Assembly (NCBI RefSeq): GCF_000020665.1 | Contig: NC_011071.1 | Coordinates: forward strand, 1,168,501 to 1,232,500 | Direction of reading: 5' to 3' | DNA length: 64,000 nucleotides | DNA from: Stenotrophomonas maltophilia R551-3 | GTDB taxonomy: Bacteria > Pseudomonadota > Gammaproteobacteria > Xanthomonadales > Xanthomonadaceae | Shown: one piece after another, positions 19,634 through 34,868 of the stretch | Layout: every line of letters starts with the position of its first letter | Numbering within the stretch: position 1 is the stretch's first letter | Position numbers and translations under genes: made by a program | The notes under the pieces: generated by a model | Seen by the model: the letters and a program-made list of their open reading frames with translations, nothing else | Database searches by the model: none | What the model was told of the DNA's origin: nothing

Positions 19634-21217
19634 ATGTTGACCGGCAAGATCCGCAACGATATCGATAAGCTCTGGGAGAAATTCTGGACCGGGGGTATCA
19701 CCAACCCGCTGACTGTGATCGAGCAGATCAGCTACCTGATGTTTGCCCGCATGCTGGACATGCAGGAAGACGTGGTCGAACGCAAGGCCAAGCGCACCGG
19801 CAAGCCGGTCGAGCGCCTGTTCCCCGCCTCCCGCGAAGGCCAGTTGCTGCGCTGGAAGAACTTCCGCAACCTCAGTGGCAAAGAGCTGCACAAGCACCTG
19901 AAGAAGAACGTCTACCCGTTCTTTACCTCGCTGAGCACCGCCGGGGACAAGGGCGGGTCCGGGGCGGCGCTGGGGCATATTGGCGAGTACATGCAGGATG
20001 CCGACCTGGAGATCAAGAACGAGTCGGTGCTGGTGGCTGCCGTGGAAATGGTCAACGAACTGCCGCTGACACAGACCGACGTCAAGGGCGATATCTACGA
20101 ATACCTGCTCAGCAAGCTGACGACGGCCGGCATCAATGGGCAGTTCCGTACCCCGCGCCACATCATCGATGCGATGGTGGAAGTGGTGGCGCCGCAGCCT
20201 TACGAGGTGGTCTGCGATCCGTCCTGCGGCACGGCCGGCTTCCTGGCCCGCACCATGGAATACCTCAACCGCACCCATTCCAGCGAAGCGGGCACCCTCA
20301 CCGACGAGGACGGCAACAGCAGCTACACCGGTGACTTGCTGGACGCCTACCGCAAGCACATCAACAGCCAGATGTTCTGGGGTTTCGATTTCGATACCAC
20401 CATGCTGCGCGTGTCCAGCATGAACATGCTGCTGCACGGGGTGAGCGGGGCGAACATCAACTATCAGGACACGTTGAACAAATCCATCAAGGAACACTTC
20501 CCTCGTCAGGAAGAGAACTTCTTTGACGTGGTTTTAGCCAACCCGCCGTTCAAGGGCAGCCTGGATGAGGCCAACGTCAACCCGGACGTACTGGCCTTGG
20601 TCGCGACCAAGAAGACCGAGCTGCTGTTTGTGGCCCACATCCTGCGCTCGCTCAAGCTGGGCGGCCGTGCGGCGGTGATCGTGCCCGATGGCGTGCTGTT
20701 CGGCTCCAGCAAGGCCCACCAGCAGCTGCGCCGGGAACTGTTGGAAAACAACCAGCTGGAAGGCGTTATCAGCCTGCCCAGCGGCGTGTTCAGGCCCTAT
20801 GCCGGCGTGAGCACGGCCATCCTGTTGTTCACCAAGGGCGGTCAAACCGAGCGTGTGTGGTTCTACGACCTGCGGGCCGATGGCTATTCGCTGGATGACA
20901 AGCGCACGCCGCTGAAGGGCGAGGGCAGCAATGACCTACCCGATGCGATTGCCCAGTGGGCGGCCTACCGCAAGCTGGTCGAGCGCAATGCCCGTAAGCA
21001 GACCATCAACAAGCAGTTCGGTGACCGCAAGCAGAAGGCCTTTGTAGTGCCGGCCGAAGCCATCGCCGCCAACAAGTACGACCTGTCCATCAACCGCTAC
21101 AAAGAAGTGGAGCACCAGCAGGTGCAGTACGAAGACCCGAGGCAGATCCTGCAGCGGCTGCGTGCGCTGGAGCAGGAGATCCTGGCGGATCTGGATGCGC
21201 TGGAGGGGATGCTGTGA
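19634..21217 (+). CDS. hsdM: Type I restriction-modification methyltransferase M subunit
   Basis: A 527-residue N6-adenine methyltransferase subunit. The N-terminal helical HsdM domain (FWTGGITNPLTVIEQISYLM) precedes the SAM-binding motif I DPSCGTAGFL (D195) and catalytic motif IV NPPF (303-306). It methylates the target set by HsdS, protecting self DNA, and also forms part of the restriction complex. It starts 11 bases after rmuC; its stop overlaps the GTG start of hsdS. Confidence 0.96.
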   Translation: MLTGKIRNDIDKLWEKFWTGGITNPLTVIEQISYLMFARMLDMQEDVVERKAKRTGKPVERLFPASREGQLLRWKNFRNLSGKELHKHLKKNVYPFFTSLSTAGDKGGSGAALGHIGEYMQDADLEIKNESVLVAAVEMVNELPLTQTDVKGDIYEYLLSKLTTAGINGQFRTPRHIIDAMVEVVAPQPYEVVCDPSCGTAGFLARTMEYLNRTHSSEAGTLTDEDGNSSYTGDLLDAYRKHINSQMFWGFDFDTTMLRVSSMNMLLHGVSGANINYQDTLNKSIKEHFPRQEENFFDVVLANPPFKGSLDEANVNPDVLALVATKKTELLFVAHILRSLKLGGRAAVIVPDGVLFGSSKAHQQLRRELLENNQLEGVISLPSGVFRPYAGVSTAILLFTKGGQTERVWFYDLRADGYSLDDKRTPLKGEGSNDLPDAIAQWAAYRKLVERNARKQTINKQFGDRKQKAFVVPAEAIAANKYDLSINRYKEVEHQQVQYEDPRQILQRLRALEQEILADLDALEGML

Positions 21218-22308
21218 GCTTTTTTCAAAACCACTCAGGGTGGCCTTTGGTCCCGCTCAAGAATATTGCGACTCTTAAGCGCGGATACGATCTGCCAGTT
21301 GGGATGAGAAATAAAGGTGAAGTTCCCATTTATGCGGCTAATGGACAGAATGGCTCTCACGATGAAGTGAAAATCAATGGCCCTGGCGTAATAACGGGAA
21401 GGTCAGGAACGATAGGGAGAGTTCACTATTGTGAAGGTGGCTTTTGGCCGCTGAATACCGCGTTGTATGTGATGGATTTTCATGGCAACCATCCGCGATG
21501 GGTCTATTACATGCTTTCTGCTTTCAAGCTGGAGCGGTTTTCTGAGGGTGCCGGCGTGCCAACTCTCAATAGAAACTTAGTCCATGATGAGCTGATCCCG
21601 CTGCCGCCCCTGCCCGAACAGAAACGCATTGCCGCCATCCTCGACAAGGCCGACGCCATTCGCCGCAAGCGCCAGCAAGCAATCCAGCTTGCTGATGACC
21701 TCCTGCGCGCGGTCTTTCTGGACATGTTCGGTGACCCGGTGACCAATCCGAAAGGTTGGCCCAGGAAAGCTCTCAGAACGCTCGGTAGTTCAATCACGGG
21801 GAAAACGCCGCCGAGCGAAAAGGCTGGCATGTGGGGCAAAGGAACTCCTTTTGTAACGCCAGGTGATTTAAATGGGTGCATCAGGTCATCGGCCCGAGAG
21901 GTGACTGAAGAGGGATTGGCGAATTCTAGGTTGTGTCGCGCAGGTGGTCTGTTGGTTTGCTGTATTGGTGCGACAATCGGAAAAGTTGGAATTTCTGAAT
22001 CTCCTGTGACTTTCAATCAGCAGATAAACGCACAAGAGTGGAATTGTGAGGTCCATGATATTTATGGGTACTTTGTTTTTAAGATTTGCCCACAGTTGGT
22101 TAGAGATGGGGCGATTCAAACCACTCTTCCTATTCTGAAGAAATCACTTTTTGATGGGATCGAAATTCCTGTTCCTCCTCGGGCCATGCAGGCTAAATTT
22201 GCTGGTATTGTGGAGAGCACTTTAGCCTTGAATGAGAGGAATGAAGTTGCTCTTGAAATGCCTGTCTTCGAGTCGCTATCTCAGTTGGTGTTCGCGGGGG
22301 GGCTTTAA
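21214..22308 (+). CDS. hsdS: Type I restriction-modification specificity S subunit
   Basis: A 364-residue DNA-recognition subunit with two target-recognition domains (about 8-130 and 180-330) separated by the conserved helical spacer LPEQKRIAAILDKADAIRRK. The start is GTG, overlapping the hsdM stop by four bases (GTGA), with GGAGG just upstream. Both recognition domains, the second in particular, are markedly richer in A+T than the spacer, which fits frequent swapping of these domains. The recognised sequence cannot be read from the protein. Confidence 0.94.
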   Translation: MSFFQNHSGWPLVPLKNIATLKRGYDLPVGMRNKGEVPIYAANGQNGSHDEVKINGPGVITGRSGTIGRVHYCEGGFWPLNTALYVMDFHGNHPRWVYYMLSAFKLERFSEGAGVPTLNRNLVHDELIPLPPLPEQKRIAAILDKADAIRRKRQQAIQLADDLLRAVFLDMFGDPVTNPKGWPRKALRTLGSSITGKTPPSEKAGMWGKGTPFVTPGDLNGCIRSSAREVTEEGLANSRLCRAGGLLVCCIGATIGKVGISESPVTFNQQINAQEWNCEVHDIYGYFVFKICPQLVRDGAIQTTLPILKKSLFDGIEIPVPPRAMQAKFAGIVESTLALNERNEVALEMPVFESLSQLVFAGGL

Positions 22309-23282: not shown

Positions 23283-24011
23283 CTACACCGCGTCATCGCC
23301 CCCGGGATTGCGCATCGGCGGGTTCTCGTCGGTCACCGCGCGCCATACGGCTTCGGCCACGGCCTGCGGCGTGGTCACCGGGCCGCTGCTGTCGCGAAAG
23401 CTGGCCAGCACGCCCTGCACCAGCGGCGCATAGGCAGGGTGCTCCATGCCGCCCAGATGCGGGAACGCGTTTTCGCCGAAGCGCGTGGTCGGCGCGCGGC
23501 CGGGCAGCACCAGGCGCACGCGCACGCCCAGCGGCGCGACTTCGATGGCCAATGATTCGGTGAAGGCGTTCACCGCCGCCTTGCTGGCGCTGTACACGCC
23601 CACCAGCGGCAGCGCCTTCACCGTCACCGTGGTGGTCATGTTGACGATCACGCCGTCGCCGCGCTCGCGCATCTGCGGCAGCACGGCTTGGGTCATGGCC
23701 AGCGTGCCCAGGGTGTTGGTGTCGAACAGGGCACGCGCTGTTTCCAGTGGCGTAAGTTCCACCGGCACCGGTGCGCCGAAACCGGCGTTGTTGACCAGCA
23801 TGTCGATCGGGCCGGCCTCGGCGATGGCGTGCGCGATGCTGGCCGGATCGGTGATGTCCAGGGCGAGCACGCGCAGATGCGCGGACGCCGGCAGCAGGTC
23901 GGTGCGCGGGGTGCGCATGGTGGCGATGACCTTCCAGCCACGGTCGAGGAACAGGCGGGCGGTCTCCAGCCCGAAGCCGGAGGAACAGCCGGTGATCAGT
24001 ACGGTTTGCAT
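23283..24011 (-). CDS. SDR family oxidoreductase
   Basis: A 242-residue classical short-chain dehydrogenase/reductase using NAD(P)H. The cofactor loop TGCSSGFG is at residues 7-14, NNAG at 74-77 and the catalytic pair Y140 and K144 in VYSASK. The usual catalytic serine position (13 before the tyrosine) is T127 within NMTTTVTV, a substitution that could alter activity. Substrate unknown. It is divergent from an AraC regulator with 93 bases between, which suggests that this regulator controls it. Confidence 0.9.
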   Translation of the reverse strand: MQTVLITGCSSGFGLETARLFLDRGWKVIATMRTPRTDLLPASAHLRVLALDITDPASIAHAIAEAGPIDMLVNNAGFGAPVPVELTPLETARALFDTNTLGTLAMTQAVLPQMRERGDGVIVNMTTTVTVKALPLVGVYSASKAAVNAFTESLAIEVAPLGVRVRLVLPGRAPTTRFGENAFPHLGGMEHPAYAPLVQGVLASFRDSSGPVTTPQAVAEAVWRAVTDENPPMRNPGGDDAV

Positions 24012-24036
24012 CGGGTCTACGTCAGCGGGAATGAGA

Positions 24037-24046
24037 GACCATGGTC
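24037..24046. promoter_or_regulatory. Short palindrome between divergent SDR and AraC genes
   Basis: GACCATGGTC, a perfect 10-bp palindrome in the 93-base gap. It could be part of a regulator site, but such short palindromes also arise by chance in GC-rich DNA. Confidence 0.25.
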
Positions 24047-24104
24047 AGCTTGGCTTGGTGGACGCGCTACAGTGAAACGTCTGTATTTTCTTGCTGAGCG
24101 TCCA

Positions 24105-25004
24105 ATGTCGTCCGATCCGCTGTCCGAGGTCGTTTCCTTGCTGCAGCCCACGGCACGCCACTCCAAGCGGGTCGAGGCGGCGGGCGAGTGGTGCGTGCGC
24201 CGCGAAGGAGAGGGCGAGCCGTTCTATATGGCGGTGCTGCACGGCCAATGCCGCCTGTCGGTGGACGGTGGTGCGCCGCTCACCCTGCAGGCCGGCGATT
24301 TCGTGCTTGTGCCGGCCCTGCGCGAGCTGGTCAACACCAGCATGCAGGCGCCGCCGGACATCACCCCCAGCCTGCCGGTACGCCTCGCGGAGGGCCACTT
24401 CCGGGTCGGGCGCGCGGACGGACCGGCAGCGTTGTGCGCGCAGATCGGCCACTGCGGATTCGCCTCGCCCGATGCCGCCCTGCTGGTGTCGTTGCTGCCG
24501 CGGCTGTTGCACATACGCGGTGAGCCGCGCCTGGCCACGCTGGTCCAGATGGTGGGCGAGGAGGCGCGCGCGCAGCGGCCGGCCCGCGATGTGGTGCTGG
24601 AGCGCTTGCTGGAAGTACTGCTGATCGAGGCGCTGCGCAGCGGTATGGACAGCGTCGGCGGCAGCGGCCTGGTACGCGGGCTCGGCGATGAGCGGCTGGC
24701 CGCGGCACTGCGCGCGCTGCATGCGCGGCCCCAACATGCATGGACGGTAGAGGAACTGGCCGGGAAGGCGACGATGTCACGCTCGGGCTTCGCCGCGCGT
24801 TTCATGCAGGTGGTGGGTGTGGCACCCATGGAATGCCTGCTGCAGTGGCGCATGGCGCTGGCCAAGCGCCTGCTGAAGGATCGTGCACTGAGCCTGGAAC
24901 AGGTGGCCGAACGGGTGGGCTATGCCAGCGCGGTCACCTTCGGCGTGGCATTCGCGCGGTTGGTGGGCATGCCGCCGGCAAGGTTCGCGCGCATGCGCGA
25001 TTGA
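24105..25004 (+). CDS. AraC family transcriptional regulator with cupin sensor
   Basis: A 299-residue regulator. The N-terminal half is an AraC-type cupin (HGQCRLSVDGGAPLTLQAGDFVLVP) of the subgroup with the domain later called Cupin_6; the C-terminal 100 residues hold two helix-turn-helix units (WTVEELAGKATMSRSGFAARF and LSLEQVAERVGYASAVTFGVAF). The start at 24105 replaces an upstream frame that runs through the SDR gene. It is divergent from the SDR oxidoreductase, its likely target. Confidence 0.9.
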   Translation: MSSDPLSEVVSLLQPTARHSKRVEAAGEWCVRREGEGEPFYMAVLHGQCRLSVDGGAPLTLQAGDFVLVPALRELVNTSMQAPPDITPSLPVRLAEGHFRVGRADGPAALCAQIGHCGFASPDAALLVSLLPRLLHIRGEPRLATLVQMVGEEARAQRPARDVVLERLLEVLLIEALRSGMDSVGGSGLVRGLGDERLAAALRALHARPQHAWTVEELAGKATMSRSGFAARFMQVVGVAPMECLLQWRMALAKRLLKDRALSLEQVAERVGYASAVTFGVAFARLVGMPPARFARMRD

Positions 25005-25061
25005 TCACCTGCAGTCTCACTGTCGTTGTGCCGCGCAGCATCGATTTTCGTGCACCGCGAC

Positions 25062-25091
25062 TTGCAAACAGACAATTTCCTCCCCTATGGT
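25062..25091 (+). promoter_or_regulatory. Probable promoter of the + strand sugar-oxidation operon
   Basis: TTGCAA (25062-25067), an 18-base spacer, and TATGGT (25086-25091) resemble a sigma-70 promoter. The -10 box abuts the LacI-type palindrome at 25091-25104, an arrangement suited to repression. Confidence 0.45.
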
Positions 25092-25104
25092 GCAATCGAT
25101 TGCA
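25091..25104. promoter_or_regulatory. LacI-family operator (copy 1)
   Basis: TGCAATCGATTGCA, a perfect 14-bp palindrome with the central CG typical of LacI-family sites, 48 bases before the TIM-barrel gene. The same 14 bases recur at 33781-33794 beside a LacI regulator gene, the likely binder of both. Confidence 0.8.
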
Positions 25105-25152
25105 TTGCTGTGAATTGTTGCGTTTGATACCGGTTGGGAGGCCGGCAGGTGG

Positions 25153-26049
25153 ATGTCCATCCATTCGATCAGACCGGCCCCGGCGAGGGGGCTCACGCGG
25201 CGTGATGCGTTGCGCATGGCGGTTGCTGGAGGCGTAGCCCTGGGTACTGCGGGAGCATTGCCCGCATTCGCCGGCACTGCACCGCTGAAGGGCCACCTGA
25301 AGCACGCCGTGGCCCGCTGGACCTTCCCGCAGCTGTCGGTCGCCCAGCTTTGCAGCACAGTGAAGGACATTGGCTTTGCCGCGATCGACCTGGTCGGTCC
25401 GGAAGACTGGCCCACGTTGAAAGCCAATGGCGTATACAGCTCGATGTGCAACGGCGCGGAGCTCGGCCTCACCAAGGGCTTTGCCGGCCGCCAGTTCCAT
25501 GACCAGCTGGTGGAACGCTACACGCGGCACATTGATCTGGTCGCCGAGGCCGGTTATCGCAACCTGATCTGCTTCTCGGGCAACCGCAACGGGATGGACC
25601 CGAAGGAAGGCCTGGCCAATGCCGAGGCCGGCCTCAAGCGCATCCTCGGGCACGCCGAGAAGCGCGGTGTGGTGCTGGTGATGGAGCTGTTGAACTCCAA
25701 GGTCGATCATCGTGACTACCTGTGCGACCACTCCGCATGGGGCGTGGAGCTGTGCCAGCGGCTCGGCTCGGACAACTTCGGCCTGCTCTACGACATCTAC
25801 CACATGCAGATCATGGAGGGCGACATCATCGCCACCATCGGCAAGCATCACGCCTGCTTCAAGCATTACCACACCGCAGGCGTGCCCGGCCGGAACGAGA
25901 TCGGAGACCAGCAGGAGCTCCACTATCCGGCCATCTGCCGTGCGATCCGCGACACCGGTTTCAAGGGGTATCTGGCGCAGGAATTCATGCCTGCAGCGCC
26001 CGATCCCGTTGGCTCATTGCGCGAGGCAATCCGCCTCTGCGACGTCTGA
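25153..26049 (+). CDS. Exported TIM-barrel sugar isomerase-like protein
   Basis: A 298-residue protein of the AP-endonuclease-2-like TIM-barrel fold, related to hydroxypyruvate isomerases. It carries a twin-arginine signal (TRRDALRMAVAGG, about 15-27) ending near AFAG. Metal ligands expected in the family are present: E in VMELLNS, D in LLYDIYHMQ, H in YHTAGVPGRNE and E in AQEFMP. As a periplasmic enzyme in a 3-keto-glycoside cluster it may act on the keto-sugar or on a glucal intermediate rather than hydroxypyruvate. First gene of the operon after operator copy 1. Confidence 0.82.
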   Translation: MSIHSIRPAPARGLTRRDALRMAVAGGVALGTAGALPAFAGTAPLKGHLKHAVARWTFPQLSVAQLCSTVKDIGFAAIDLVGPEDWPTLKANGVYSSMCNGAELGLTKGFAGRQFHDQLVERYTRHIDLVAEAGYRNLICFSGNRNGMDPKEGLANAEAGLKRILGHAEKRGVVLVMELLNSKVDHRDYLCDHSAWGVELCQRLGSDNFGLLYDIYHMQIMEGDIIATIGKHHACFKHYHTAGVPGRNEIGDQQELHYPAICRAIRDTGFKGYLAQEFMPAAPDPVGSLREAIRLCDV

Positions 26050-26076
26050 ATCGATATCCACCCAGGTGAGAAACCC

Positions 26077-27762
26077 ATGGCAGATAATCACTACGACGCC
26101 ATTGTTGTTGGCTCGGGAATCAGTGGCGGTTGGGCAGCGAAGGAGCTGACCGAAAAGGGCCTGAAGGTCCTGATGCTGGAACGCGGACGCAACATCGAGC
26201 ACGTCAAGGACTACGTCAACGCGATGAAGGAGGCGTGGGACTTCCCGCACCGAAACCGGCCAACGCAGGCGATGAAGGCCGACTTCCCGGTGCTGATGCG
26301 CGACTATGGCCTGGCCGAGAACCTGGAAGGGATGTGGGCCAACGAACAGGACTCGCCCTACGTCGAGACCAAGCGCTTCGATTGGTTCCGCGGCTATCAC
26401 GTCGGCGGCCGCTCATTGTTGTGGGGCCGGCAGAGCTATCGCTTCTCCGACCTGGACTTCGAGGCGAATCTCAAGGACGGCATCGCAGCCGATTGGCCCA
26501 TCCGCTACGCTGATATCGCGCCGTGGTACGACCATGTGGAGAAATTCGCAGGTATCGCTGGTACGCGCGAAGGGCTGGACGTGTTGCCGGATGGTGAGTT
26601 CCTGCCGCCTATCCCATTGAACATCGTCGAGAAGGACGTGGCCGCACGGATCAAAAAGGCGTTCGGCGGCACCCGGCACATGATCCACTCGCGCACCGCC
26701 AACATCACAAAGCCCATGCCCGAACAGGGCCGCGTCAACTGCCAGTACCGCAACAAGTGCATCCTGGGTTGCCCCTTCGGCGCTTATTTTTCCACCCAGG
26801 CAGCGACACTGCCGGCGGCGATGAAGACAGGCAACCTGACCTTGCGGCCGTTCTCGATCGTCAAGGAAGTGCTCTACGACAAGGACCGCAAGCGTGCCCG
26901 CGGCGTGGAGGTGATCGACGCCGAGACCGGGCAGACCTACCAGTACACGGCCAAGGTCATCTTCCTCAACGCATCGTCGTTCAACTCGACGTGGCTGTTG
27001 ATGAACTCGGCCACCGATGTCTGGGACGGCGGGCTGGGCTCCTCGTCGGGCGAGTTGGGGCACAACGTGATGGACCATCATTTCGGTGCGGGTGCCTCCG
27101 GCCGCGTCGAGGGCTACGAAGACAAGTATTACTTCGGGCGTCGCCCCTGCGGCTTCTACATTCCGCGGTTCCGCAACGTCGCGGCTGACAAACGCGGTTA
27201 CCTGCGCGGGTTCGGCTACCAGGGCGGCGCAAGCCGCACCGGCTGGTCGCGCGAGATCGCCGAGCTCAACATCGGTGCCGACCTGAAGGAGGCGCTGACC
27301 GTGCCGGGCGACTGGCGTATCGGCATGACCGGCTTCGGTGAAATGCTGCCGCACCACGACAATGCGATCCGCCTGGACCACGACCGCAAGGACAAGTGGG
27401 GGTTGCCGGTGCTGGCGATGGACGTTGCCATGCGCGCCAACGAACTGGCGATGCGCAAGGACATGGCCGCCGATGCCGCAGAGATGCTGGAGGCGGCCGG
27501 CGTCAAGGACGTGAAGATGCACGACAACGACTATGCCCCGGGCAAGGGCATCCACGAGATGGGGACCGCGCGCATGGGACGTGATCGGAAAAGTTCGGTG
27601 CTGAACCAGCACAACCAGGTATGGGATGCGCCCAACGTGTATGTCACCGACGGTGCCTGCATGACCTCCAGCGCCTGCGTGAATCCTTCGCTGACCTACA
27701 TGGCGCTGACGGCCCGGGCCGCCGACCATGCGGTGCGCGAACTGAAAGCGGGGAACCTCTGA
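26077..27762 (+). CDS. GMC family FAD oxidoreductase, probable glucoside 3-dehydrogenase large subunit
   Basis: A 561-residue flavoprotein. The FAD-binding motif GSGISGG is at residues 12-18; the C-terminal GMC domain contains H493 in HEMGTARMG and N536 in CVNPSL, the His/Asn pair of the active site. It lacks its own signal peptide; the next gene encodes a small subunit with a twin-arginine signal, so the pair is probably exported together. With that subunit and a c-type cytochrome in the regulon, it fits the membrane-linked sugar dehydrogenases; neighbouring DUF1080 points to oxidation of the C3 hydroxyl of glycosides. Substrate inferred, not shown. Its stop overlaps the next start by one base. 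Confidence 0.88.
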   Translation: MADNHYDAIVVGSGISGGWAAKELTEKGLKVLMLERGRNIEHVKDYVNAMKEAWDFPHRNRPTQAMKADFPVLMRDYGLAENLEGMWANEQDSPYVETKRFDWFRGYHVGGRSLLWGRQSYRFSDLDFEANLKDGIAADWPIRYADIAPWYDHVEKFAGIAGTREGLDVLPDGEFLPPIPLNIVEKDVAARIKKAFGGTRHMIHSRTANITKPMPEQGRVNCQYRNKCILGCPFGAYFSTQAATLPAAMKTGNLTLRPFSIVKEVLYDKDRKRARGVEVIDAETGQTYQYTAKVIFLNASSFNSTWLLMNSATDVWDGGLGSSSGELGHNVMDHHFGAGASGRVEGYEDKYYFGRRPCGFYIPRFRNVAADKRGYLRGFGYQGGASRTGWSREIAELNIGADLKEALTVPGDWRIGMTGFGEMLPHHDNAIRLDHDRKDKWGLPVLAMDVAMRANELAMRKDMAADAAEMLEAAGVKDVKMHDNDYAPGKGIHEMGTARMGRDRKSSVLNQHNQVWDAPNVYVTDGACMTSSACVNPSLTYMALTARAADHAVRELKAGNL

Positions 27763-28343
27763 TGGATCGCCGCGAACTGCTGAAAATGATCGTCGCCGCC
27801 ACGGGGGCGGCCATGGTCGGCCTGCCTGCGCTCGTGCAAGGGCAGGCGCCGGCGCTGGCCGCCGCTGCGAAGCTCCATTTCTCCGACGCCGATGTCGGCA
27901 CGCTGGACGAGATCGCCGAGACCATCCTGCCGCGGACCCGGACACCAGGCGCAAAGGATGCCGGCGCCGGCCTGTTCATGGCGACGTTCGTCAGCGACTG
28001 CTACAGCGCCCGGCAGCAGGCGACGTTCCGCGCCGGGCTGACGGATATCGACAAACGCGCTGGTGGCCGGTTCGTATCGCTCACACCGGAAGCCCGCACC
28101 GAATTGCTGCGCACGCTTGATGCAGAAGCCAAGGCGCGTCATGCCGATGTGACCGAAACCGGGACGCCTGAAGAGGGCGAGGCAATGCCACACTACTTCA
28201 CGATGCTCAAGCAGCTGGCCATCTTCGGCTTCTTCACCTCCAAGGTCGGCGCGACCGGGGTGCTGCAGTACGTTGCCGTGCCGGGGCGCTACGACGGCGA
28301 CCTCGCCTATGTTCCCGGTACACCCGCCTGGGGGACCAGTTGA
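27762..28343 (+). CDS. Gluconate 2-dehydrogenase subunit 3 family protein (small subunit, Tat-exported)
   Basis: A 193-residue protein with an N-terminal RR-containing signal (MDRRELLKMIVAATGAAMVG). The body (LDEIAETILPRTRTPGAKDA, FTMLKQLAIFGFFTSKVG) matches the small-subunit family of periplasmic GMC dehydrogenases. It probably escorts the large subunit through the Tat system and stabilises it. The ATG overlaps the GMC stop (TGATG), so translation is coupled and subunit ratios are fixed. Confidence 0.87.
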   Translation: MDRRELLKMIVAATGAAMVGLPALVQGQAPALAAAAKLHFSDADVGTLDEIAETILPRTRTPGAKDAGAGLFMATFVSDCYSARQQATFRAGLTDIDKRAGGRFVSLTPEARTELLRTLDAEAKARHADVTETGTPEEGEAMPHYFTMLKQLAIFGFFTSKVGATGVLQYVAVPGRYDGDLAYVPGTPAWGTS

Positions 28344-29101
28344 TGGAGCGCAACAGGATGATCAAGCCTTTGTTGATCGCGGCCACGGTGCTGGCCGCCG
28401 CACCTGCGTTCGCGCAGGCCGCTGCCGACCCTGCACGCGATCCGAAGAAGACCGAGGTGTGGACGCCGGTGCCCGCGACCGTGGCCACGCCGCCAGGCAA
28501 GGCACCGTCCGATGCAATCGTGCTGTTCGATGGCAAGGATGTCTCCGCGTGGGAGTCGGAGCAGGGCGGACGCGTGCCCTGGAAGATTGCCGATGGCGCC
28601 ATGACCGTCGTGCCGGGCAGCAAAGGCATCCGCACCAGGCAACGCTTCTGCGACGTCCAGCTGCATGTCGAGTGGCGCACACCCACCGACACCAAGGGCT
28701 TCGAGGGCCAGAACCGGGGCAACAGCGGCATCTTCCTGCAGGAACTGTATGAGCTGCAGGTGCTCGACAGTTACAACAACCCGACCTATGCCAATGGCCA
28801 GGCGGGTTCCATCTACAAACAGGCGATGCCGTTGGTGAACGCCGCGCGCGCACCGGGCGAGTGGCAGGCCTACGACATCCTCTGGAAGGCACCGCGCTTC
28901 TCGCAGGGCGGTGGGCTTGTGTCGCCCGCGCGCATCACGGTGCTGCACAACGGCGTGCTGGTGCAGGACGACACTGTGCTGGCCGGCAAGACCGAATACA
29001 TCGGTGCGCCTTCCTACGCGCCCCATGGGTGTGCGCCGCTCTACCTGCAGGAGCACGACTCCAAGGTCAGCTACCGCAACATCTGGGTGCGCGAGCTGTA
29101 G
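28343..29101 (+). CDS. Exported DUF1080 protein, probable 3-keto-glycoside hydrolase/lyase
   Basis: About 252 residues. The start ATG at 28343 overlaps the previous stop; a second ATG at 28358 begins the signal peptide proper (MIKPLLIAATVLAAAPAFAQ). The mature part shows the 3-keto-disaccharide hydrolase (DUF1080) pattern: IVLFDGKDVSAWES, NRGNSGIFLQELYELQVLDS and VHNG-like HNGVLV. The family cleaves glycosides whose C3 has been oxidised, which matches the GMC dehydrogenase in front of it. It acts in the periplasm. Last gene of the + strand operon. Confidence 0.85.
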   Translation: MERNRMIKPLLIAATVLAAAPAFAQAAADPARDPKKTEVWTPVPATVATPPGKAPSDAIVLFDGKDVSAWESEQGGRVPWKIADGAMTVVPGSKGIRTRQRFCDVQLHVEWRTPTDTKGFEGQNRGNSGIFLQELYELQVLDSYNNPTYANGQAGSIYKQAMPLVNAARAPGEWQAYDILWKAPRFSQGGGLVSPARITVLHNGVLVQDDTVLAGKTEYIGAPSYAPHGCAPLYLQEHDSKVSYRNIWVREL

Positions 29102-29108
29102 TGGCACA

Positions 29109-29130
29109 CGGCCGGCGTGGTCGCCGGCCG
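29109..29130. terminator. Hairpin between convergent operons
   Basis: CGGCCGGCG, loop TGGT, CGCCGGCCG: a perfect 9-bp GC stem lying 7 bases after the DUF1080 stop and directly before the cytochrome c stop on the other strand. No T tract, so termination is inferred from position. Confidence 0.55.
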
Positions 29131-29131
29131 C

Positions 29132-29428
29132 TTACTTCGCCAGATAACTGGCGATGTCATCGATTTCCTGCTGCGACAGCTGGGAGAAGGGTGGCATCAA
29201 GCCTCCGCCCTTCCTGATCTTGTCCTTGATCTGCGCAGGTTGCAGTCGCTTGCTGAGATCGGTGAGCGCCGGAAACGCGCCCGGCATGCCCGCACGATCC
29301 GCACCATGGCAGGCCACGCAGTTCGCGGTGTAGAGCTTTGCACCGGCGGCCGGGTCGTCCTTGCACCATGCTGCTGTCGCAACGCTCATGCCGCCCAGGG
29401 CCACGGCCATTGCCAGGATCATTTTCAT
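29132..29428 (-). CDS. c-type cytochrome
   Basis: A 98-residue single-heme cytochrome c. After a signal peptide (MKMILAMAVALGG...) comes the heme site CVACH (residues 37-41), and a methionine in GGGLMPPF as the likely sixth ligand. It would take electrons from the periplasmic GMC dehydrogenase and pass them to the respiratory chain. It is the last gene of the minus-strand operon, 18 bases after the TIM-barrel gene. Confidence 0.9.
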   Translation of the reverse strand: MKMILAMAVALGGMSVATAAWCKDDPAAGAKLYTANCVACHGADRAGMPGAFPALTDLSKRLQPAQIKDKIRKGGGLMPPFSQLSQQEIDDIASYLAK

Positions 29429-29446
29429 GTGGGGCTCCTTGATGCG

Positions 29447-30310
29447 TCAGCGCTGCGCACGGGCGGGCACGTTGGCGGGCAGGTGTTCACGCAGGTAATC
29501 CGCGCCGGTCTGGATGATCTTGGCCGGATCGCGTGGCTGGTCGTGCTCGATGATGTACCAGTGCACGCCGGCGGCTGCCGCAGCAGGCAGGATCGCGTTC
29601 CAGTCCAGCACGCCCTGGCCCACCGCAGCGAATCCACCTTCGTCTTCGGCCTGGCCCTTTGGCGCATTGTCCTTGGCATGCACGGCGAACATGTGGCCGC
29701 GGAATTTTTCCAGCATCAGCGCCGGATCCAGGCCCGCACGCGCGACCCAGGCCAGGTCCAGCTCGGTCTGCAGGTCGGGGCCGGCCGCGGCGAACAGCAG
29801 TTCCAGGCCCGTCCTGCCGTTGAAGTCGACCAGCTCGAAGTCGTGGTTGTGGTAGGCCAGGCGCATGCCCTTGGCCTGCACCTGCCTGGCGATGCTGCCC
29901 AGTTCCTGGCCCAGCGCGGTCCAGCCTGCGGCGTCGGTCGGGCGATCCTTCTTGTCCAGGTACGGCACCACCAGCGTCGTGTTGCCGATTGATCGGTTGA
30001 AGGCGACCACACCGTCCAGGTTGCTGCGCAACTCGGCCAATGGCACGTGCGATGAGATCGCCTTGATCGAATACCGGTCCAGCAGCTGCTTGAGTTCGGC
30101 CGCGCTGGTGTTCTGGGTGCCGACCGTTTCCACCGCGTGCACGCCCGCGTCGTGGACGATCTTCAACTGCTGGTCGAGTGAGCCGGCGTTGCGCAGGGTG
30201 TACATCTGCACCGCGATCGGTTTCTGCGTGCTGGCGGCTTCGCCTGCGAAGGCGGGCAGGGCAGTGAGCAGCAGGACGAGACTTGCAGTTCTACGGACAA
30301 GGGTTTTCAT
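29447..30310 (-). CDS. Exported sugar phosphate isomerase/epimerase-like TIM-barrel protein
   Basis: A 287-residue TIM-barrel protein with a Sec signal peptide (MKTLVRRTASLVLLLTALPAFAG). Family motifs are present: AVQMYTLRNAG at the first strand, YHNHDFE, TELDLAWV and HAKDN, containing metal-binding histidine, glutamate and aspartate residues. A periplasmic location is unusual for sugar-phosphate enzymes and argues for a free (keto-)sugar substrate. GGGAGG precedes the ATG. Second last gene of the minus operon. Confidence 0.85.
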   Translation of the reverse strand: MKTLVRRTASLVLLLTALPAFAGEAASTQKPIAVQMYTLRNAGSLDQQLKIVHDAGVHAVETVGTQNTSAAELKQLLDRYSIKAISSHVPLAELRSNLDGVVAFNRSIGNTTLVVPYLDKKDRPTDAAGWTALGQELGSIARQVQAKGMRLAYHNHDFELVDFNGRTGLELLFAAAGPDLQTELDLAWVARAGLDPALMLEKFRGHMFAVHAKDNAPKGQAEDEGGFAAVGQGVLDWNAILPAAAAAGVHWYIIEHDQPRDPAKIIQTGADYLREHLPANVPARAQR

Positions 30311-30330
30311 CTACAGATCCTCCCGGGTTT

Positions 30331-31455
30331 TCAACCGATGGCAGTCCAGGCGCGCGACCTGGCCGATGCAATGACACGATCGACGATCTGCGCCGAGCGC
30401 AGCCCATCTTCGAAGGTCGGCAGTCCCTGCGGGCGCTCGCCGTTGATGGCGCGATAGGTGTCGGCAACAAATGCTTCGAAACACTGCGCGTAGCCCTGCG
30501 CGTGACCGGCGGGCAACACCGACAGCCGGCGTTGCTCGGCACTGCCGGCCCCGGGGCCACGCACGAAGATTTCCTCGCGCTGGTCGGGCAGGCCGATCCA
30601 CAGCCGCTCGGCGTCTTCCTGGTTGAAGGCAACGCTGGTGTTGGCGCCATCGATCTCGAACCAGAGGCGATTGCGGCGTCCCGCCGAGACCTGGCTGACC
30701 GTCAGCGACGCCAGGGTACCGGCGCCGGTTCTGAACATTGCCAGCGCCACGTCCTCGCTCGTCACCGCCTGCATCGCGCTGCCTGCCGTCGGCGTGCTGA
30801 AGCTTTGACCGGTGTCGGTGCCGCGTTCGGCGATCACGGTATCGAACGCCGCGCTGACTTCGGTGAAGCGCTCGCCGCTGACCCATTCCACCAGGTCGCA
30901 CCAGTGCGAGCCGATGTCGGCGAACACGCGCGAAGCGCCTCCCAGCGCGGGGTCCACGCGCCAGTTGTTGCTGGCCGGATCCAGCAGCCAGTCCTGCAGA
31001 TAGCTGCCGTGAATCAGGTGCAGCGGTCCCAGTTCGCCCTGCGCGATGCGTGCGCGCGCCTCGCGCACCACCGGGTGGTAGCGGTAGACGAAGGGCACCG
31101 TAGCAACCAGTCCGGTCGACGCGGCCAAACCTGCCAGCGCCTGCGCATCTTCCAACGTGGTGGCCAGCGGCTTCTCGCAGATCACGTGCTTGCCGGCATC
31201 CAGCGCAGCCTGCGCCATCGAGCGGTGCAGATGGTTGGGTGTGCAGACATGCACGACCTGTACCTGCGGATCGGCGATGAGCTCCTCGATGTCCCGGTAG
31301 GCGCGCGGGACATTCCACGACTGCGCTGCCTCACGCGCGCGCTGCGGTGACGAGGCCGCCACGCCGCGTACCTCGGCACCCGCCAGCAATGCCGCACGGC
31401 GATGCACGGTACCGATCATGCCGGCGCCGATGATGGCGATTCCAAGCTTTGGCAT
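30331..31455 (-). CDS. Gfo/Idh/MocA family oxidoreductase
   Basis: A 374-residue cytosolic NAD(P)-dependent sugar oxidoreductase. The Rossmann motif GIAIIGAGMIGTVH starts at residue 5; CEKPLA carries the conserved lysine, and DIGSHWCDL holds the catalytic histidine region of the C-terminal domain. In this cluster it could reduce imported 3-keto-glucose back to glucose, or oxidise a glycoside; the direction is an inference. It lies 20 bases from the TIM-barrel gene and 12 bases after the transporter gene. Confidence 0.9.
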   Translation of the reverse strand: MPKLGIAIIGAGMIGTVHRRAALLAGAEVRGVAASSPQRAREAAQSWNVPRAYRDIEELIADPQVQVVHVCTPNHLHRSMAQAALDAGKHVICEKPLATTLEDAQALAGLAASTGLVATVPFVYRYHPVVREARARIAQGELGPLHLIHGSYLQDWLLDPASNNWRVDPALGGASRVFADIGSHWCDLVEWVSGERFTEVSAAFDTVIAERGTDTGQSFSTPTAGSAMQAVTSEDVALAMFRTGAGTLASLTVSQVSAGRRNRLWFEIDGANTSVAFNQEDAERLWIGLPDQREEIFVRGPGAGSAEQRRLSVLPAGHAQGYAQCFEAFVADTYRAINGERPQGLPTFEDGLRSAQIVDRVIASARSRAWTAIG

Positions 31456-31467
31456 CGGCTGTGGTCC

Positions 31468-32685
31468 TCAGAGCGCGGAAGGCGCGGCCGCGGCCACCGG
31501 CCGCTCGCGGAACAGCAACAGGAAGGCGATCAGCACGAGCAGTGCGACGCCGGCCGGGAACAACCAGATCTTCTGCCAGTCCGGGCCCGCTGCCGTGGTG
31601 TAGTGCTCCACCACCGCGCCGGACAGGAAGGTGCCGATCAGCATGCCCACGCCGTAGGTGGCCAGGGTGATGAACCCCTGCGCGCTGCTGCGCGCGGCGG
31701 GGCCGGCATGCGCATCGGTGTAGATCTGCCCGGTGACGAAGAAGAAGTCGTAGCAGATGCCGTGCAGCACGATACCGATCACCAGCAGCGAGAAGCCGCC
31801 GCCCGCATCGCCGAAGGCGAACATGGCATAGCGCACCACCCAGGCCGCCATGCCCACCGCCAGCATCGTCTTGACGCCAAGGCGCACGAACAGGAACGGC
31901 ATGGCCAGCATCAGCAGGACTTCGGAAACCTGGCCCAGCGATTGCAGGCCGGCCGCGCCGCGCACGCCGAGATCGTTGAGATATGGGTTGGTGAAGTTGT
32001 AGTAGAACGACAGCGGGATGCAGATGGCGATGGAGGCCAGGAAGAACACCAGGTAGGAGCGCGACTTCAGCAGCCGCAGCGAGTCCAGCCCCAGGATCTG
32101 CCCCAGCCCAGCGTCGCGCTGCTGTGCCAGTGGCGGCGTGTGCGGCAGGGTGAAGGCATACAGGCCCAGCGCCAGCGAGGCCACCGCCGCCATCTGGAAG
32201 GTCAGCTCCAGACGATGCGCCTGTTCCCAGCCCAGCCAGCCGATCAGCACGCCCGCTACGATCCAGCCGATGCTGCCCGCCACGCGCACCAGCGGGAACT
32301 GCTTCTCGGGCGATTGCATGTGCCGCATCGCCACACTGTTGGCCAACGCCAGCGTGGGCATGAACAGCAGCATGTAGCCCATCACGTAGGCCGAGAACAT
32401 GCTGAAGCTGGTCGCCGTGGACGCCAGCCACATCAGCACCGCGCCGGCCAGGTGCAGCACCGCGAGGATGCGCTGCGCGGCGAAGTAGCGATCGGCGATC
32501 AGGCCGACCAGGAAGGGCGCGACGATGGCGCCGATGGACTGGCTGAGGAAGGCCGTTGCCACCTGGCTGGCGCTGGCCTGCAGCGGGCCCTGCACCAGGT
32601 AGGTTCCGAGGGTGACGAACCATGCCCCCCAGATGAAGAACTGCAGAAACATCATCGCGCCCAAGCGCGACATGGCGTGCGTCAT
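31468..32685 (-). CDS. MFS transporter, nucleoside:H+ symporter-like
   Basis: A 405-residue inner-membrane carrier with about 12 hydrophobic segments. The N-terminal FLQFFIWGAWFVTLGTYL and GLIADRYFAAQRIL (the A-like loop) match the NupG/XapB-type family, members of which are also often found with sugar-catabolic genes. It is the only transporter in the regulon and would import the products of periplasmic oxidation. Confidence 0.87.
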   Translation of the reverse strand: MTHAMSRLGAMMFLQFFIWGAWFVTLGTYLVQGPLQASASQVATAFLSQSIGAIVAPFLVGLIADRYFAAQRILAVLHLAGAVLMWLASTATSFSMFSAYVMGYMLLFMPTLALANSVAMRHMQSPEKQFPLVRVAGSIGWIVAGVLIGWLGWEQAHRLELTFQMAAVASLALGLYAFTLPHTPPLAQQRDAGLGQILGLDSLRLLKSRSYLVFFLASIAICIPLSFYYNFTNPYLNDLGVRGAAGLQSLGQVSEVLLMLAMPFLFVRLGVKTMLAVGMAAWVVRYAMFAFGDAGGGFSLLVIGIVLHGICYDFFFVTGQIYTDAHAGPAARSSAQGFITLATYGVGMLIGTFLSGAVVEHYTTAAGPDWQKIWLFPAGVALLVLIAFLLLFRERPVAAAAPSAL

Positions 32686-32712
32686 GGCTTGCCCTCCCGG
32701 GGCGGTAATGGC

Positions 32713-33765
32713 TCAGATTCCCAGCATGCGGCGCAGTGATTGCGGGTCCGTGCCGCTGTCGGCGAAATCATCGAAGGCACGCTCGGTCACCCGGATGATG
32801 TGGTCGCGGATGAACGCGGCACCTTCGCGTGCGCCGTCCTCGGGGTGCTTCAGGCAGCACTCCCACTCCAGTACGGCCCAGCCCGGGAAGTCGTACTGCG
32901 CGAATTTCGAGAAGATCGCCTTGAAGTCGACCTGGCCGTCGCCGAGCGAACGGAACCGCCCCGGACGATCGATCCAGTCCTGGTAGCCGCCATAGACACC
33001 ACTGCGCGCGCTTGCGTGATACTCCGCGTCCTTGACGTGGAAGATGCCGATGCGATCGTGATAGCGGTCAATGAAACCCAGGTAGTCCATCTGCTGCAGC
33101 AGCAGGTGGCTGGGGTCGTACAGGATCTTCGCGCGGGGGTGGTGATCCACCACATCGAGGAAGCGTTCGAAGGTCGCGCCGTCATGCAGGTCTTCGCCCG
33201 GATGGATCTCGAAGCACAGGTCCACGCCGCAGGCGTCGAAGGCGTCCAGGATCGGTCGCCAGCGGCGGCCGAGCTCGGCGAAGGCTTCTTCCACCAGCCC
33301 CGGTGGACGCTGCGGCCAGGGATAGAAGTAGGGCCAGGCCAGTGCGCCGGAAAACGTGGCGTGCGCGGTCAACCCCAGGCGCTGGCTGGCCTTGGCGGCC
33401 AGCAGCAGCTGCTGCACTGCCCAGGCCTGGCGGGCGGCCGGGTCGCCGCGCTTGTCTGCCGGCGCGAAACCGTCGAACAGGCTGTCGTAGGCGGGGTGGA
33501 CAGCAACCAGCTGTCCTTGCAGGTGGGTGGACAGTTCGGTGATCTGCAGGCCATGTCCGCCCAGCATGCCGGCGAGGTCGTCGCAGTACGCCTGGCTGCG
33601 CGCGGCCTCGGCCAGATCGAACAGGTGGGGCGCGCTGGTCGGTACTTGTAGGCCAGAATAGCCCAGCGCCGAGGCCCATCCGGCCAGCGTGTCCAGTCGA
33701 TCAAAGGGAGGTGTGTCGCCAATGAACTGCGCCAGGAACAGCGCTGGACCCTTGAGCGTCTTCAA
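32713..33765 (-). CDS. Cytosolic sugar phosphate isomerase/epimerase (TIM barrel)
   Basis: About 350 residues. I choose a TTG start at 33765 (LKTLKGPALFLAQFIGDTPPF) because AGGGCG lies nine bases upstream; the ATG at 33795 falls inside the operator. Metal-site motifs are FEIHPGEDLHD, ILYDPSHLLLQ and FHVKDAEY. No signal peptide, so it acts in the cytosol, unlike its two exported relatives in the regulon. First gene of the minus-strand operon, immediately after operator copy 2. Confidence 0.85.
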   Translation of the reverse strand: MKTLKGPALFLAQFIGDTPPFDRLDTLAGWASALGYSGLQVPTSAPHLFDLAEAARSQAYCDDLAGMLGGHGLQITELSTHLQGQLVAVHPAYDSLFDGFAPADKRGDPAARQAWAVQQLLLAAKASQRLGLTAHATFSGALAWPYFYPWPQRPPGLVEEAFAELGRRWRPILDAFDACGVDLCFEIHPGEDLHDGATFERFLDVVDHHPRAKILYDPSHLLLQQMDYLGFIDRYHDRIGIFHVKDAEYHASARSGVYGGYQDWIDRPGRFRSLGDGQVDFKAIFSKFAQYDFPGWAVLEWECCLKHPEDGAREGAAFIRDHIIRVTERAFDDFADSGTDPQSLRRMLGI

Positions 33766-33779
33766 GATGATTCGCCCTG

Positions 33780-33795
33780 ATGCAATCGATTGCAT
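33780..33795. promoter_or_regulatory. LacI-family operator (copy 2)
   Basis: ATGCAATCGATTGCAT, a perfect 16-bp palindrome whose inner 14 bases equal copy 1 at 25091. It lies between the divergent isomerase (start 33765) and LacI regulator (start 33861), where a bound repressor could block the minus operon and also affect its own gene. Confidence 0.82.
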
Positions 33796-33860
33796 TACCC
33801 TAGCATGGGCCTCCTGCAGACCCGTTGTGCACTGCACAGCGATTGGAACAACGTAACGCC

Positions 33861-34868
33861 ATGGCAACCATCTACGACATCGCAAGGCACGTTGGCGTTT
33901 CCGCCGGTACCGTGTCGCGTGCGCTTTCGCGGCCGGACAAGGTGCTGCCGGCCACCCGCACGCGCATCGAACAGGCGGCCGCTGCCCTGGGCTATGTGCC
34001 CAACACGGTCGCCCGGACGCTGAAGACCCAGCGCAGCGGCAAGATCCTGGTCACCGTCCCGGACATCGCCAATCCATTCTTCGCGCAGATCCTGCAGGGC
34101 GCGGAGGACGCGGCGCAGGCGGTCGGCTACGCCGTGCTGCTGGGCGATACCCAGAATCTGCCCGAGCGCGAGGAGCGCTACGCGCAGATGCTCCGGCGCA
34201 ACGAGGCCGACGGGCTGATCGTGCTGGGGCACCGCCTGCCGCCGACGGCGCGCGAGATCGTCCAGCAGCGGGGCACCGCTGCACCGGTGGTCAATGGCTG
34301 CGAATTCGATCCCGCGCTGGGCATCCCCAGCGTCCACATCGACAACGCGGCCGCCGCGCGCGCGGTGATGGACCATCTGTATGGGCTGGGACACGAGCGC
34401 ATCGCCGTGGTCGGCGGGCCGCCCGACAATCCGCTGCACCAGCAACGGATGGAAGGGGTCCGGGCCGCCGCCAAGGCGCGCGGCCGCCTGCGCCAGCTGG
34501 GCATCGTGCCGGGCGACTTTTCCCTGCAGTCCGGCCATGCGGCCGCGCAGGCGCTGCTGGCCTCGGCCGCCGCGCCGACGGCGATCTTCTGCTTCAGCGA
34601 CCAGATGGCGCTGGGTGCCCTGGCGACCTGCCGGGATCTGGGCATCCGCGTGCCGGAGGACCTGTCCATCGTCGGCTTTGACGATCTGGCATCGTCGCGT
34701 TACCTGACGCCGCCGTTGACCACCATCCGGCAGCCCATGCGCGAGATCGGTGAGCGCGCGGTCAACCTGCTGCTCGCCATCATCGAGCAGGTCGATGTGC
34801 CGCTGCAGCAGACGCTGGATTTCAGCCTGATGCTGCGCGGCTCGACGGCTGCGCCCAGCAGCGGCTGA
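33861..34868 (+). CDS. LacI family repressor of the sugar-oxidation regulon
   Basis: A 335-residue regulator. Helix-turn-helix MATIYDIARHVGVSAGTVSRAL at the very N-terminus, hinge LGYVPNTVARTLKTQ, and a sugar-binding-type sensor domain (DGLIVLGHRLP; GFDDLASSRYLTPPLTTI). It is divergent from the minus operon and next to operator copy 2; the identical palindrome before the + operon lets one protein govern both. The inducer is probably a glycoside or keto-sugar. Confidence 0.92.
   Translation: MATIYDIARHVGVSAGTVSRALSRPDKVLPATRTRIEQAAAALGYVPNTVARTLKTQRSGKILVTVPDIANPFFAQILQGAEDAAQAVGYAVLLGDTQNLPEREERYAQMLRRNEADGLIVLGHRLPPTAREIVQQRGTAAPVVNGCEFDPALGIPSVHIDNAAAARAVMDHLYGLGHERIAVVGGPPDNPLHQQRMEGVRAAAKARGRLRQLGIVPGDFSLQSGHAAAQALLASAAAPTAIFCFSDQMALGALATCRDLGIRVPEDLSIVGFDDLASSRYLTPPLTTIRQPMREIGERAVNLLLAIIEQVDVPLQQTLDFSLMLRGSTAAPSSG

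Follow-up and report, generated by a model that had tools for sequence, protein, structure and literature searches.

Are the two convergent operons described here, from Stenotrophomonas maltophilia R551-3, controlled together, and if so by which protein? The operons lie in a 64,000-nucleotide stretch of contig NC_011071.1 (positions 1,168,501 to 1,232,500; "the window", whose own numbering is used below). They run from 25153 to 29101 on the + strand and from 33765 back to 29447 on the - strand, and a LacI-family gene (lacI) stands beside the start of the - operon. An earlier reading of the letters alone (the sequence-only reading) had pointed to a 14-bp palindrome, TGCAATCGATTGCA, at both outer ends of the pair, and had proposed a single local regulon under the adjacent LacI. 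From computed sites, positions, conservation, co-occurrence and concerted drift, we conclude that a LacI/CytR-like repressor very likely acts on the start sites of both convergent operons as a single local regulon; its binding, repression, inducer and substrate are predicted. The elements in question are these:

25091..25104, operator 1 (putative), TGCAATCGATTGCA, which covers the putative transcription start of the + operon and overlaps the -10 by one base
33781..33794, operator 2 (putative), the same 14-mer, just downstream of the putative extended -10 of the - operon and 15 bases before its TTG start
33861..34868, + strand, lacI, a LacI/CytR-like repressor with a TVSR recognition helix and a hinge with Ala51 and Leu54 (Pfam LacI and Peripla_BP)

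We found that exact copies of the palindrome are confined to these two positions. An exact search of the window returned both and no other, as the sequence-only reading had stated by eye. The genome-wide search that it had suggested returned the same two places in 4.57 Mb, both at the cluster and 8690 bp apart. The expected number of exact copies is 0.0003-0.0005 per 64 kb and 0.02-0.04 per genome (Markov models, order 1-3). Allowing up to 3 mismatches gave 6 matches in the window, the two exact ones included. Shuffled sequences gave a mean of 3.68, and 18/100 shuffles reached 6; the near-matches are thus at shuffle level and the exact pair alone stands out. Allowing up to 2 mismatches raised the genome total to 11 (the exact pair and 9 imperfect places), compared with 1 for the reversed control. 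The window contains 15 perfect 14-bp palindromes, and two sequences are present twice, TGCAATCGATTGCA and the GC-rich CCTGCTGCAGCAGG. Because a second palindrome also repeats, repetition alone is weak evidence, and it is conservation that carries the case.

The 14-mer and lacI occur together in the genus. Among 37 same-genus genomes (R551-3 included; LacI orthologue cut-off 1e-60), 25 contained the exact 14-mer, with two copies in 24 and one copy in an 83%-complete assembly (G015). Those same 25 genomes encoded a LacI orthologue (best E 4.3e-188 or lower, 86-100% identity), as did 0/12 of the others. In a family set of 297 genomes (cut-off 1e-80), the exact 14-mer was present in 53 and a LacI orthologue in 45 (E 2.7e-174 or lower, 80-100% identity). 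Of these 45, 34 carried the exact 14-mer once or more, and in the remaining 11 each of the two positions had a variant differing by one or two bases. The reversed control did not occur in the listed genus/order and family genomes.

We compared 55 clusters, comprising all 45 from the family set and 10 further ones from the genus. In each of the 55 the nine genes are arranged as here, and each of the two promoters has its site, either exact or with 1-2 changes; the sequence-only reading had proposed such a check in related genomes. One cluster (G301) is split over two contigs and was left out of the tree and of the counts of site variants and spacings, which cover 54. The + site was TGCAATCGATTGCA in 39 genomes, TGCAATCGATTGAA in 7, TTCAATCGATTGAA in 4, CGCAATCGATTGCA in 3 and TGCAATCGATTGTA in 1. 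The lacI-side site was TGCAATCGATTGCA in 43, TGCAATCGATTGAA in 10 and TTCAATCGATTGAA in 1. Variation was confined to positions 1, 2 and 13. Mean information was 1.89 and 1.94 bits within the operators versus 0.82 and 0.85 around them.

A collection of named loci gave similar results. It held 78 loci, drawn from the best 80 of 180 relatives, and 72 were from Xanthomonadaceae. The lacI-side site was present in 72/72 of these and both sites in 59/72. Twelve of the 13 loci without a far site do not include the far promoter. The other (L289, Xanthomonas arboricola pv. populi) retains lacI with its near operator and the minus operon; none of the four + operon genes and no far operator turned up in this locus. 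An operator variant ending in AA occurs in Xanthomonas records among the named loci. Six distant loci (two Acidobacteria, three Paenibacillus, one Syntrophomonadaceae), two of them with little or no upstream DNA, had no such site beside lacI. For the acidobacterial LacI of L321 (56%), no perfect 12-, 14- or 16-base palindrome started in the first 400 bases, only 218 of which precede the gene, and L324 (49%) has no DNA before the matched part; these loci therefore give no distant support. Outside the family, 24 genomes of the order were searched: one had the 14-mer (G058, at a sux-like locus; see below), and three encoded LacI proteins at 38-43% identity, with no 14-mer.

We found that the operators and the DNA-binding domain changed together. 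In 11 genomes both operators have A at position 13 (consensus C), in the other 43 neither does, and none is mixed. In an alignment of 54 of the 55 LacI proteins (G035, of the consensus group, was left out), the two operator groups were separated only by a one-residue N-terminal insertion and S14T. Both positions lie within the DNA-binding domain, and S14 is the first residue of the recognition helix. In the numbering used in PMC2978694, Ser14 is LacI residue 16, next to the specificity pair 17-18. Such joint drift of the two sites and the DNA-binding domain supports a pairing of LacI and operator, short of statistical proof.

The protein is of a type that would fit the site. The helix-turn-helix domain (PF00356) and the core (PF13377/PF00532) scored above their cut-offs, as in LacI/GalR proteins. 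The best NCBIfam match was CytR, at 323 bits, below the cut-off of 436 for a CytR equivalog. In the family rules given by Camas 2010 (PMC2978694), a TVSR helix with Ala51 and Leu54 pairs with palindromes that have a central CG. By sequence comparison, the cluster LacI has TVSR, Ala51 and Leu54 and is encoded beside a CG-centered palindrome.

The position of the sites within the promoters was assigned by eye:

25062..25091, + strand, putative promoter of the + operon, -35 TTGCAA (25062-25067) and -10 TATGGT (25086-25091), spacer 18
33797..33805, - strand, putative extended -10 TGCTAGGGT of the - operon (TGCTAGGAT in most relatives compared)

Most relatives compared have a TTGCAA-like -35 at the + promoter and TATGGT (TATCGT in distant genera) 17-18 bases away. 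Because the + operator opens with the final base of the -10, it spans about -7 to +7. At the - promoter, the extended -10 directly precedes the operator, with a gap of two bases in R551-3. Operator 2 is bracketed by the TTG at 33765 (start of the - operon, chosen by eye from relatives) and the ATG of lacI at 33861, which places it between the minus operon and the divergent lacI, as the sequence-only reading had it. The putative placement over the start sites is a classic position for steric repression. In two relatives (L111 and L114), short tandem duplications in the + promoter put an extra partial half-operator directly before the operator.

Based on these results we suggest the following mechanism. 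The lacI product would bind the two identical operators as a dimer, each operator covering the transcription start of one operon. Without a sugar signal, LacI would block RNA polymerase at both ends, and an inducer, perhaps a 3-keto sugar or glycoside, would release both operons together. The two sites would act independently rather than through a loop, and LacI may also repress its own gene. The proposal of a single local regulon under the adjacent LacI is thus strongly supported by the co-occurrence in the genus (25/25 versus 0/12), the arrangement in 55/55 clusters and the concerted drift, with control itself a prediction.

Some of our results weigh against this reading. The sequence-only reading had the first site overlapping a plausible -10. 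The overlap stands by eye, since the site shares its first T with TATGGT, but a stricter consensus scan found no promoter there and none at 33740-33900. Because such scans miss both promoters, the promoter assignments rest on conservation. The tree of the neighboring GMC gene needs two changes of the operator group and still allows a single one, and the co-variation amounts to only one or two events. Finally, the 14-mer core is common to sites at sux loci, so sequence alone does not name the protein that reads it.

A repressor that bridges the two operators into an 8.7-kb DNA loop important for repression is very improbable. The possibility of looping, raised in the sequence-only reading, draws on two identical strong sites at both outer ends of one molecule with the regulator gene at one side, but the distance between them is variable. 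Spacing took 49 different values in the 54 clusters, between 8660 and 11954 bp, and phasing at 10.5 bp was not significant (Rayleigh p 0.109), in place of the constrained, phased spacing of E. coli LacI-type looping. Four clusters of genus code g48 (L119, L132-L134) and named Luteimonas loci such as L301 have ~3 kb extra between the two operons. A C-terminal stretch of E. coli LacI tetramerizes that protein. The cluster LacI has 335 amino acids, aligns to LacI residues 4-333 of 360 and lacks this tetramerization helix. We rejected an obligatory loop on spacing, phasing and protein length, and the looping proposal was not supported.

Could the main reader of the sites instead be a different LacI-family protein that recognizes the same core, for example SuxR, with the neighboring lacI incidental? 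X. campestris SuxR is reported to repress suxAB, suxC and suxR without sucrose, as seen with a mutant and quantitative reverse-transcription PCR (Blanvillain 2007, PMC1790865). We rejected the idea that the 14-mer is private to the cluster LacI, as sux loci share the core. The exact 14-mer was present in 19 family genomes without a LacI orthologue. Copies unrelated to sugar genes, which the sequence-only reading had named as evidence that would count against it, were sought among these. In 15 of the 19 the copy is at a sux-like locus, and in four it is at neither type of locus. In 14 of the 15, the 14-mer adjoins a TonB-dependent-receptor-like gene, and a LacI of 31-36% identity (matched part) is encoded 1.6-3 kb away. 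In the fifteenth (G210) it is beside a SuxR match. The transporter gene on the other side in the 14 gave an SSF-type match in 9, and is MFS by Pfam in L162. Pfam also identified the receptor and the LacI of L162, the receptor of L147 and, alongside in each of these two loci, a sucrose-hydrolase-like or alpha-amylase-family protein. Each of the four other genomes (G128, G241, G172 and G188; L152, L153, L155 and L157) had one exact 14-mer without a match to the cluster or to a sux receptor, transporter or LacI in 16-20 kb.

Sites of this kind are common at sux loci. SuxR-like proteins were found in 47/297 family genomes (E<=1e-80), and 37 sux regions (L214-L250) were compared. A site with at most 1 mismatch was present in 33/37 (7 exact; the exceptions were G344, G284, G296 and G169). 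The commonest was TACAATCGATTGCA, and two sites lay 86-101 bp apart in 28/37 regions. One genome (G306) has the identical 14-mer at its sux locus and at this cluster. The base after the core is A in 32/33 best sux sites and T at this cluster in 54/54 + sites and 47/54 lacI-side sites (A in 5, C in 2). As 5/54 lacI-side sites also have A, we rejected this base as a clean discriminator between the two regulons.

By identity and gene content, the cluster LacI is not a SuxR orthologue, nor is it linked to sux genes. There was no SuxR match at E<=1e-80 in R551-3 or in the 12 further genomes of its genus that carry the cluster in the family set, and all of these keep both sites. The sites follow the neighboring LacI exactly within the genus. 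For all that the 14-mer recurs at sux-like loci near a different LacI, SuxR or a like protein is even less probable as the main reader than a loop is as part of the mechanism. The least probable alternative is that the palindrome forms a hairpin in the transcript, marks a modification site or is a non-regulatory promoter fragment inherited in common: perfect palindromes are common in the window and one other repeats, but here the flanks diverge around an almost invariant 14-mer that is fixed at the promoter start and covaries with the LacI DNA-binding domain.

The two promoters of the predicted LacI regulon have a second element in common:

25025..25041, + strand, GTTGTGC-N3-GCAGCAT, upstream of the + promoter; pattern match, on the + side in 43/54 clusters
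33824..33840, + strand, GTTGTGC-N3-GCACAGC, upstream of the - promoter and before lacI; 54/54 clusters

The pattern GTTGTGCNNYGCA matched 4 places in the R551-3 genome, 2 of which are these promoters; the reversed control also matched 4. The looser TTGTGC-N3-GCA was found at near-constant distances on the lacI side (54/54) and the + side (43/54), with 3 other matches in 1.72 Mb of strand. Nineteen further genomes had 2-10 matches each (100 in total; 59 for the reversed control), at both cluster positions in 15 and on the lacI side only in 4. With counts near those of the reversed control, the element is near background outside the clusters. At 25049-25059, CGTGCACCGCG resembles a weaker copy of it, about two helical turns nearer the + promoter. 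The PhaR/PhbF box is given as TG[N]TGC[N]3GCAA, with core TGC-N3-GCA, in PMC3206438. The second element has this core and differs from the box in its outer bases (GCAC for GCAA, one side). R551-3 encodes a PHB_acc_N protein (105.8 bits). A term search of the Xanthomonas PhaR paper (PMC6304360) found no binding site or motif. In its core the element resembles PhaR/PhbF boxes, and it could equally belong to another factor.

In one speculative and rather unlikely reading, SuxR and the cluster LacI are paralogs that have one operator core in common across the Xanthomonadaceae and cross-regulate where both are present. All 11 genomes with drifted operators encode SuxR, as do 2 consensus genomes (G306 and G326); 3 consensus genomes of genus code g26 (G243, G335 and G168) do not. 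The same reading would make the move of the operators to TGCAATCGATTGAA/TTCAATCGATTGAA, with S14T and the N-terminal insertion, in 11 of the 13 examined genomes bearing both proteins a step that insulated them from such cross-regulation, and would tie both promoters to carbon storage through the PhaR-like element. Sux sites vary also in genomes without this cluster. Given this, one or two drift events and too few independent pairs, insulation from SuxR is only a suggestion.

What would such a regulon control? The genes of the two operons are:

25153..26049, + strand, xylose-isomerase-like TIM-barrel protein (PF01261); a Tat-like leader was read by eye
26077..27762, + strand, GMC-type flavin adenine dinucleotide (FAD) oxidoreductase, probable large subunit of a glycoside 3-dehydrogenase (putative substrate; PF05199/PF00732)
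27621..28343, + strand, gluconate-2-dehydrogenase subunit 3 family (PF13618), which likely pairs with the GMC enzyme and probably starts further in than 27621
28340..29101, + strand, 3-keto-disaccharide hydrolase (DUF1080) family (PF06439)
29447..30310, - strand, TIM-barrel isomerase-like protein (PF01261)
30331..31455, - strand, Gfo/Idh/MocA oxidoreductase (PF01408)
31468..32685, - strand, MFS permease, nucleoside-H+ symporter family (PF03825)
32713..33765, - strand, TIM-barrel isomerase/epimerase, first gene of the - operon, start by eye from relatives (PF01261)

Together the two operons probably encode uptake and 3-keto-glycoside catabolism, by C3 oxidation followed by cleavage and reduction, with a glycoside as the presumed substrate. 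We treated an open reading frame at 29117-29992 (+) as spurious; it matches no Pfam family and overlaps the antisense isomerase gene at 29447-30310. An AraC/cupin-6 regulator gene at 23688-25004 was rejected as a co-regulator. It was matched in 2/56 loci only (G000 and G009; E<=1e-15) and is thus outside the conserved system. A few kb upstream of the cluster, at 21214-22308, is a gene for a type I restriction specificity subunit (PF01420).

The LacI-regulated sugar regulon with twin operators is very probably a new, well-defined addition to a familiar class of gene switches. We found no paper containing the 14-mer string in the open-licence PubMed Central (PMC) literature; subscription papers, supplements and databases such as RegPrecise are beyond that scope. 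A literature search for glucoside 3-dehydrogenase with Stenotrophomonas found nothing, and a small set of paper searches gave no description of the cluster. The results provide a well-supported candidate regulator, operator and target list for a sugar cluster that is widespread in Stenotrophomonas, Xanthomonas, Pseudoxanthomonas, Lysobacter, Luteimonas and relatives, and the regulator assignment offers a route to the substrate through the inducer. The shared sux core and the second paired element are more interesting than the original claim. A core common to SuxR, together with a small co-varying change, would make a compact natural case of how paralogous repressors stay separate.

Several known systems resemble this one. 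The Agrobacterium GlycDH-OGE operon is described as carrying out analogous steps of glycoside 3-oxidation and beta-elimination (PMC10628242), and a 3-oxidizing enzyme, two isomerase-fold proteins and a Gfo-type reductase are grouped in both. In contrast to that operon as described, the cluster here is divided between two convergent operons, and its products include three TIM-barrel proteins, a DUF1080 hydrolase and a GMC enzyme that has a subunit-3 partner. Local LacI-family sugar regulons (PMC2978694; Ravcheev 2014, PMC4052901) likewise have 14-bp CG-centered palindromes near the regulator gene and a TVSR helix, and from those accounts we see no difference in kind. Neither 'xanthomon' nor CAATCGATTG occurs in the PMC4052901 main text. 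Enterobacterial CytR, the best NCBIfam model for the cluster LacI, has the site TGCAA-N2-3-TTGCA (PMC3454398). The TGCAA/TTGCA half-sites are also in the cluster operators, and the CytR spacer is slightly shorter. CytR is described there as using loosely spaced octamers, whereas the cluster has one rigid CG-centered 14-mer, a LacI below the model cut-off, and no nucleoside genes except the MFS gene of the nucleoside-symporter family. SuxR of the Xanthomonas sux regulon (PMC1790865) is also a LacI-family repressor at a sugar locus, and in several of the genomes compared here sux loci have the same 14-bp core (exact in 7/37 regions). The proteins share 31-36% identity. The sux genes encode a TonB-dependent receptor, an MFS or SSF transporter and an enzyme of a sucrose-cleaving family, and the sux sites are mostly closely paired and followed by A, in contrast to the widely separated sites of this cluster, which are mostly followed by T.

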